Origin: Whitmania pigra
Taxonomy: Eukaryota; Annelida; Clitellata; Hirudinida; Haemopidae
Reading direction: 5' to 3'
Length of the DNA stretch: 64,000 bases
NCBI GenBank assembly: GCA_021613335.1
Contig: JAJTWR010000113.1
Location: forward strand, 1,677,501 to 1,741,500
A program made the position numbers and the translations under genes. Under the pieces are notes generated by a model. The model did not search any database. It was not told the DNA's origin and saw nothing but the letters and a program-made list of their open reading frames with translations. Position 1 is the first letter of the stretch. Every line of letters begins with the position of its first letter. This document shows positions 38,109-39,735 of this stretch, one piece after another.

Positions 38109-39735
38109 TCAAAAATTAAGCTTGCTAAGAAACTTGTTCATAAGGTCCTTCAAGTTCACATTTTTCCTTTCAGAATCTTTAGTTTGTTTGTCATTACTTT
38201 TTTCTTCTTTGTTGTTCTTTTTATTTCTTCTTTCTATCTTTTTGTCGTTGTTATCATTGTTACCTTTGTAATTATTCCGTTGATCACTTTTATCAATATC
38301 ACCATATCGAGCTTTGGCGTCATTTGTGTCATCACCTTTATCTTTAGTACTAGCGGATTCACCATCCTTATCATTGTTATCACCTGCATTGTCATTATTT
38401 TCGTTATCCTTGGTATCATCATCACCTTTTCTTTTTTTGCCATTGTTATCACTCTCTGTGTGGTCATTATTACCGACATCATCATCATCATCATCATCAT
38501 CATCATCATCATCATCATCATCATCATCATCATCATCATCATCATCATCATCATCATCATCATCATCATCATCATATCATCATCATCATCATCATCATCA
38601 TCAGCATCATCATCATCATCATCATCATCATCATCATCATCATCATCATCATCATCATCATCATCATCATCATCATCATCATCATCATCATCATCATCAT
38701 CATCATCATCATCATCAGCATCGTCATCATCATCATCATCATCATCATCATCATCATCATCATCGCTATCGGATTTATTCTTTTCATTGTCATCTTTCCT
38801 GCTGGATTTATTTTCACTTTTTTCCTCGCCATCGCCATTTTTAAAATTGCTGTTTTTATTGTTTTTATTTTCATCAATAATTTTTTCAGAGTTAGTGTTA
38901 TTTTTATCATCATCTTTGCTATCTTCATCATTACTGTTACTCTTCCCATCTTCGCTTTCAGAATCACCATCTTTCTCTTTACTGTTATTATTATTACTGC
39001 TTCCTTTATCCTCCTCATCACTTTTCTTTTTATCTCCATTCGCTTCATCCTCGCCATCTTTAGCATCAACTTTCCCTGCAGTTTCTCCATCCCAAGATTT
39101 GCTGTCGCTTGACTTCGAACAGCTTGAATTCTCGTTCCCTGCGAATCAATAGTCTTTGAATTAAATTCAATCCAATCAATTAATAATAAATAGTCTCCTT
39201 AGACCACTGTTTGTGACGTTAATTCTTTAACAACAACATTTAATACACACATACTATGCTGACCATGTGCAAGTTGTCTCAGAGTGTAGCATTCCTGCGA
39301 GCGATGGAAAAAAAAACAGTCGTTACGTGTGGTGTTCGAAACTCAACTTGTGCTGCCACAAAAAGGCCTGGTATGTGGCTCTATGCAAATTTCTGAGAGT
39401 CCCTGACGCTTACGCTTGCGGCGCTTTACAAAAAACATAGCGCTGTTTTATTATTATTATTATTATTATTATTATTATTATTATTATTATATTATTATTA
39501 TTATTATTATTATTATTATTATTATTATTATTATTATTATTATTATTAATTAGTATTATTGTGACCACCAAATAAAATCACATTGGTATAATAAACAGAA
39601 TAGTTTTCTTGAAAGTAATTTAATTGTCATTTATTCCATCCTATTCGATCTTAAAATACCAAATCTGTTTAAAATCCTACCTCTGGCAATCATGATGCAC
39701 AAAATAAGAACGAGCAAAAATTTCAATGAAATCAT
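38109..39735 (-). CDS. Secreted aspartate-rich protein with a poly-Asp tract
   Basis: Exon 1 is 39681-39735 on the minus strand and encodes the signal peptide MISLKFLLVLILCIMIAR. Exon 2 is 38109-39138 and joins in phase via AGAG|gtagg and cgcag|GGAACG. The mature protein, about 340 residues, starts GNENSSCSKSSDSK. It has an acidic Asp/Glu/Lys/Asn/Ser region of about 120 residues, a run of about 95 Asp codons (38478-38764, two Ala interruptions), a second Asp/Asn/Lys/Gly-rich region, and the C-terminus LKDLMNKFLSKLNF. One missing base within the tract (near 38576) must be assumed to keep frame; exon length modulo 3 agrees with exactly one. Extreme acidity plus secretion resembles mineral-binding proteins such as mollusc Aspein, an analogy and not a demonstrated homology. 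The two other frames read poly-Met and poly-Ile/Ser and are judged artefacts. Confidence 0.68.
39275..39440 (+). mobile_element. Diverged SINE, family 2
   Basis: It has box B GTGTTCGAAACTC, the GTGCTGCCACAA segment and a body ending near TTACGCTTGCGGCGCTTTAC. It lies in the intron of the poly-Asp gene. Confidence 0.5.
39447..39548. repeat. (TTA)n microsatellite
   Basis: About 100 bp of TTA triplets with one slip, immediately after the SINE and still inside the intron of the poly-Asp gene. Confidence 0.97.

Follow-up and report, generated by a model that had tools for sequence, protein, structure and literature searches.

Is the stretch at 38109-39735 on the minus strand of the window (the whole stretch of DNA that was analysed, 64 kb) a gene for a secreted protein with a long aspartate block, or is it a GAT microsatellite that happens to lie between open frames? 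The first-pass annotation had proposed a real secreted-protein gene. The statistics of the flanks and of the signal-like exon agree with this proposal, but an open frame through the whole tract fails in the sequence as assembled. Judged by sequence statistics, a real secreted-protein gene is probable. The reading that we favour, with moderate confidence, is a two-exon gene on the minus strand, predicted to encode a secreted, disordered protein in which a microsatellite-grown poly-Asp block lies between two polyampholyte flanks.

Gene model

On the minus strand, the candidate gene has the following features:

39793..39800, minus strand: TATA-like box TATATAAG, about 60 nt 5' of the ATG
39681..39735, minus strand: putative exon 1, signal-peptide-like start MISLKFLLVLILCIMIAR plus one base, assigned from hydropathy and layout
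39139..39680, minus strand: candidate phase-1 GT-AG intron of 542 nt, predicted from the sequence
38765..39138, minus strand: upstream part of exon 2, a hydrophilic flank of 124 aa rich in S/K/N/D/E, net charge -14
38478..38764, minus strand: GAT tract of 287 bp, assigned from the repeat and the reading of its frame
38574..38575, minus strand: phase break, where the dinucleotide AT separates two GAT runs and shifts the frame
38109..38477, minus strand: downstream flank of 122 aa rich in N/D/K, with the C-terminus NVNLKDLMNKFLSKLNF followed by TGA, net charge -1
38051..38056, minus strand: AATAAA, a possible poly-A signal about 50 nt 3' of the stop codon; the motif is likely to be common in A+T-rich DNA

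Exon 1 begins with the ATG at 39735, which has an A at position -3 (weak evidence alone), and its highest mean hydropathy over ten residues is 3.73. The TATA-like box is weak evidence alone as well, since a scan found the motif TATAWAWR at a density of about 0.4-0.8 per kb on each strand. The donor GAG/GTAGGA agrees with the consensus at six of nine places; the acceptor TTCGCAG/GG at 39138 lacks a strong pyrimidine tract, and the candidate intron contains a TTA microsatellite (39448-39560). The putative junction 39681/39138 is in phase (phase 1) and would yield ...IARG-NENSSC, i.e., MISLKFLLVLILCIMIARG-NENSSC. The residues A-R-G at the exon junction fit the (-3,-1) rule for signal peptidase. 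Exon 1 would therefore supply the signal peptide, and cleavage would probably follow A-R-G, where the two exons meet. The in-phase splice to a signal-peptide exon, as annotated in the first pass, thus holds with regard to phase and hydropathy, while the splicing itself is a prediction.

Exon 2 would consist of a poly-aspartate block with a charged polyampholyte flank of low complexity on each side. In the Asp phase, the upstream flank is stop-free for 124 codons (39136-38765) and the downstream flank for 122 codons, up to the TGA at 38111-38109, which confirms the natural end seen earlier. The GAT frame had been described as open on both sides of the tract; this is correct for each flank taken separately, but the frame is broken within the tract and, as assembled, the two flanks lie in different frames. 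The charged residues (D+E/K+R) number 37/23 in the upstream and 29/28 in the downstream flank. Hence, the term 'extracellular polyanion' suits the Asp block, but not the near-balanced flanks.

Make-up of the GAT tract

The tract, whose position and length on the minus strand were confirmed, consists, in bases, of 39+(GACGATGCT)+111+(GCT)+27, AT, and then 96. Because 287 bp is not divisible by three and the remnant AT is located at 38574-38575, the frame shifts inside the tract. The part 5' of the break reads Asp15-Ala-Asp37-Ala-Asp9, i.e., 63 codons (61 Asp, 2 Ala), and the part 3' of it reads Asp32, which opens the downstream hydrophilic frame inside the tract. When the upstream frame is continued past the break, it encodes 33 Met and then an unrelated, non-acidic tail up to a stop codon at 38234. 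The 'about 95 aspartates' counted previously correspond to 93 Asp plus 2 Ala (95 residues) summed across the break, a figure that applies only if the real gene lacks the break; the longest pure Asp run in a single frame is 37. Our impression is that a block of 93 Asp, if read in one frame, would be unusually long for poly-Asp.

The GAT tract itself is of a common microsatellite kind in this genome. The load is very heavy: 50,530 overlapping matches to (GAT)20 were found in 178 Mb, and 3759 starts of (GAT)11 without a preceding T were counted genome-wide, whereby interrupted tracts were counted more than once. With tracts so numerous, some tract beside an open frame is expected. In 200 kb of contig C1, phase shifts occur in seven of the eight GAT tracts that reach 90 bp or more. 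These control tracts contain 15 shifts in 1527 bp, which gives 2.8 expected shifts per 287 bp, compared to one observed here; thus, the break in this tract is no outlier, and the break load does not clearly point to a preserved frame. GCT and GAC interruptions are present in the control tracts, too, and are therefore no evidence of coding. Altogether, the kinds of interruption match those of the eight pooled control tracts, phase-shifting ones included. The break may be an assembly error, an allele or a fixed lesion, between which the data do not discriminate.

Coding potential of the flanks

Stop-free stretches of 100 codons with a D+E+K+N fraction ≥ 0.5 and a fraction ≥ 0.8 of nine hydrophilic residue types were searched in all six frames of 264 kb (200 kb of contig C1 plus the 64-kb window). 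Just two merged stretches were obtained, and these are the two flanks; the thresholds for flanks and exon were chosen after the locus had been seen, and the control is a single 200-kb stretch of one contig. In a first-order Markov resampling, none of 20,000 copies of either flank was open in the given frame. When codons were shuffled by column (per codon position), 3.5 stops were expected in the upstream flank, which was stop-free in 1.0% of the shuffles, and 1.9 stops in the downstream flank, which was stop-free in 9.6%. The eight TCN serine codons of the upstream flank were reached in 0 of 20,000 shuffles, the two of the downstream flank in 12%. By these column-shuffle tests, the upstream flank is well supported as coding and the downstream flank less so. 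Per codon position, the flanks agree with GAT in just 35-66% of cases; hence, they are not simply recent repeat. While the make-up of the tract is that of a plain microsatellite, its flanks are coding-like by sequence statistics.

Openings on both sides were also compared among 17 GAT tracts, 16 from contig C1 and one from the window, after four of 21 tracts had been left out for being shorter than 30 bp. Among the tracts listed, none is open further than this locus on either side, where the openings are 127 (counted past the acceptor) and 122 codons. The next best two-sided tract has openings of 114 and 52 codons, and one-sided openings in the control tracts reach up to 114 codons. The same DNA is additionally open in a second minus-strand frame (39198-38572, 208 codons) and in a plus-strand frame (38103-39152, 349 codons). 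Since two further frames are open over the same DNA, openness alone says little.

Signal-like first exons

For signal-like first exons, both strands of the contig C1 stretch (200 kb) and of the window (64 kb), i.e., 528 kb of strand, were scanned with a donor cut-off of 6/9. Ten were found, three of which have a phase-1 donor, and exon 1 is the sole one of these three in which the ATG is preceded both by a purine at -3 and by a TATA-like box. A stricter scan (donor ≥ 7/9, later offset) misses exon 1, whose donor scores 6/9. From the two signal exons with a phase-1 donor per 400 kb of C1 strand, both of which are possibly real, the chance of finding such an exon within 2 kb is about 1%. On the plus strand of the window, the candidates are at 16367 and 58451 only, both far from the locus.

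Similarity searches

In the whole genome, exon 1 and each flank match once. A whole-genome protein search with each flank found the locus itself and no second copy at E ≤ 0.001 (7 and 2 candidates scored), and a search with the DNA around exon 1, with its single match, gave no second copy of exon 1. The assembled frame (query of about 300 aa, Asp and Met runs included) yielded no homologue at E ≤ 0.001 among 1142 candidates. The masked search that the first-pass annotation had suggested, performed with a 362-aa query carrying X over the tract, yielded none at E ≤ 1 among 2117. With the flanks as queries, Pfam gave no family at E ≤ 0.01, and neither an NCBIfam family nor a PDB chain was obtained at E ≤ 1. 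Such searches are less sensitive for low-complexity queries, and in animal genomes splicing restricts them further. Thus, the absence of matches is taken as weak evidence for orphan status.

Alternative explanations

If both the gene and the break are real, the product is either a protein with 61 Asp, 33 Met and the unrelated tail up to 38234, or nothing useful, the gene then being recently broken or present as a broken allele. The break is present in the assembly as read, and given the phase shifts in seven of eight sampled long GAT tracts, slippage lesions are expected here; the same frequency may, however, reflect assembly error in repeats. Furthermore, the downstream flank is still stop-free and hydrophilic and has a distinct C-terminus and a natural stop, all of which one would expect a long-dead gene to have lost. 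A real break is, on balance, unlikely. We regard the break as more probably an assembly error or a slippage lesion of one allele; an ancient loss fits less well, since each flank is still a clean protein sequence and a natural stop is present.

It is improbable that the locus is no gene at all, but an old, eroded GAT microsatellite with stop-free flanks and a signal-like exon by chance. Such tracts abound (the 3759 starts have at least 11 units), the genetic code has no stop among the nine codons that differ from GAT by one base, and another sampled tract is flanked by openings of 114 and 52 codons. Nevertheless, the flanks here are distant from GAT and their two-sided opening exceeds that of all 16 control tracts listed. 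The upstream TCN serines are beyond chance, no other stretches of this kind occur in the 264 kb, and the signal exon is in phase. Coding on the plus strand, by the 349-codon frame at 38103-39152, is very improbable. This frame runs through the whole tract, passes the phase break without a stop and exceeds in length all other stop-to-stop frames listed for 36000-41000, but its Ile/Ser/Leu-rich make-up is what the code predicts for the antisense of purine-A-any codons. In addition, the signal-exon candidates of this strand are remote, and the TCN serine pattern favours the minus strand. The two-exon gene on the minus strand, secreted and with an Asp block, is therefore kept as the preferred reading.

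Comparison with known Asp-rich proteins

Asprich proteins are acidic, Asp-rich matrix proteins that form a collection of isoforms in a shell. Unlike such a collection, the locus appears as a single gene for which no second copy was found in the genome. Strong acidity outside the poly-Asp part, as would mark an aspein- or Asprich-type protein, is lacking (net charge -14 over 124 and -1 over 122 residues), and the database searches returned no sequence relatives among known proteins within the E-value limits given above. Where these proteins have a long Asp domain in a single frame, 61 Asp and 2 Ala are followed here by a break and 32 Asp. A signal peptide fits by hydropathy and layout, with the splice to it being predicted.

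For aspein, a shell matrix protein of Pinctada, a signal peptide and a later poly-D domain are described, and the protein is treated as a disordered biomineral protein (PMC9496343). It has an uncharged N-terminal region besides its DA and poly-D domains; the Asp-rich domains are not conserved from species to species, and the formation of calcite is promoted by the protein (PMC9496343). Compared with this description, the candidate protein is similar in having a signal-like start followed by poly-Asp. It differs in its flanks, which are Lys-rich, near-balanced polyampholytes, and has no database match.

The Asprich family of Atrina is named in a study that also describes Tcr_654638, a D-rich shell protein of Tridacna crocea, as an acidic orphan with low-complexity parts of the types D, DK, DL and DN (PMC8217771). 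Tcr_654638 comes from a shell proteome, shows no significant similarity to known proteins and has consecutive Asp runs of 2-15 residues (PMC8217771). The locus resembles this protein as an orphan with Asp runs, but its block is far longer, is broken in frame and is predicted from DNA. Homopeptides of Plasmodium falciparum, which has an A+T-rich genome, are enriched near or in disordered parts, and Asn runs are the most pervasive ones (PMC7534687). The setting is alike, but the run found here is of Asp and lies in a putatively secreted protein.

Proposed function and significance

Under the preferred reading, the protein would be intrinsically disordered, judged by its composition. Slippage would have extended a GAT microsatellite in the Asp-encoding phase and so built up the Asp block. 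This block may act as a flexible binder of Ca2+ or other cations, or of mineral surfaces, with low affinity and high capacity, located outside the cell or in secretory vesicles, and its length would be tunable through slippage. Given that the gene is real, binding of Ca2+ or mineral outside the cell by the Asp block is doubtful, as the flanks are not strongly acidic. This role is a guess by analogy from the Asp block itself; the searches for homologues and domains returned nothing in its favour. The block could equally be a cation buffer in vesicles, a component of glue or mucus, or a repeat tolerated in a fast-changing disordered protein. A living secreted polyanion with a hypermutable block, in which slippage by whole units would alter the charge between individuals and one-base slips would toggle the C-terminal half, so that the animal matrix protein would be phase-variable, is improbable.

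If expressed, the locus would encode a secreted orphan protein with a microsatellite that is still mutating as its main functional block. It would then be a clean case for studying the independent origin of acidic matrix proteins and whether sequence order matters. If the break is real, it would be an example of the same slippage destroying such genes. At present, the locus is considered a gene prediction that is plausible but whose frame is unproven, and it does not amount to evidence of biomineralisation.

Neighbouring sequences

Another Asp-rich open frame (VNDDVDDDGGDDDGEDDDHRDD) lies over an ATC/ACC repeat on the minus strand at 7014-7307. Conserved exons in the window encode an EF-hand protein (6330-6626), a DDRGK domain (44483-44764) and a glycosyl transferase of family 8 (45057-45728), the latter presumably a xyloside xylosyltransferase.

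A COX1 search gave four long matches without internal stops, one each in the contigs C115, C49, C360 and C47, which suggests that associated bacteria are contained in the assembly. Among the protein families searched, SRCR gave 28 matches, and the arthropod cuticle family PF00379 and ShK gave 0 each in scans that had no positive control, so that their absence is tentative. The host is taken to be an animal, perhaps not an arthropod.

Pieces of non-LTR retrotransposons, comprising zinc knuckles, endonuclease, reverse transcriptase and RNase H, were found at 30768-36851, where the G+C content is raised. We take them to be I/Jockey-like. A 441-aa open frame of the non-LTR element has 12 protein matches, none with an informative name: 11 are nameless ENA entries and one is a JGI 'hypothetical protein'. 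At 48849-49068, 1.9 head-to-tail units of 114 bp, 99% alike and with a short CAT run at the start, represent a recent duplication. Opposed arrays of a G+C-rich 14-bp minisatellite at 59983-60236 and 60897-61150 form a 254-nt inverted repeat, 97% complementary and with 660 nt in between; the inverted arrays at 59983-61150 look like a fold-back mobile element.
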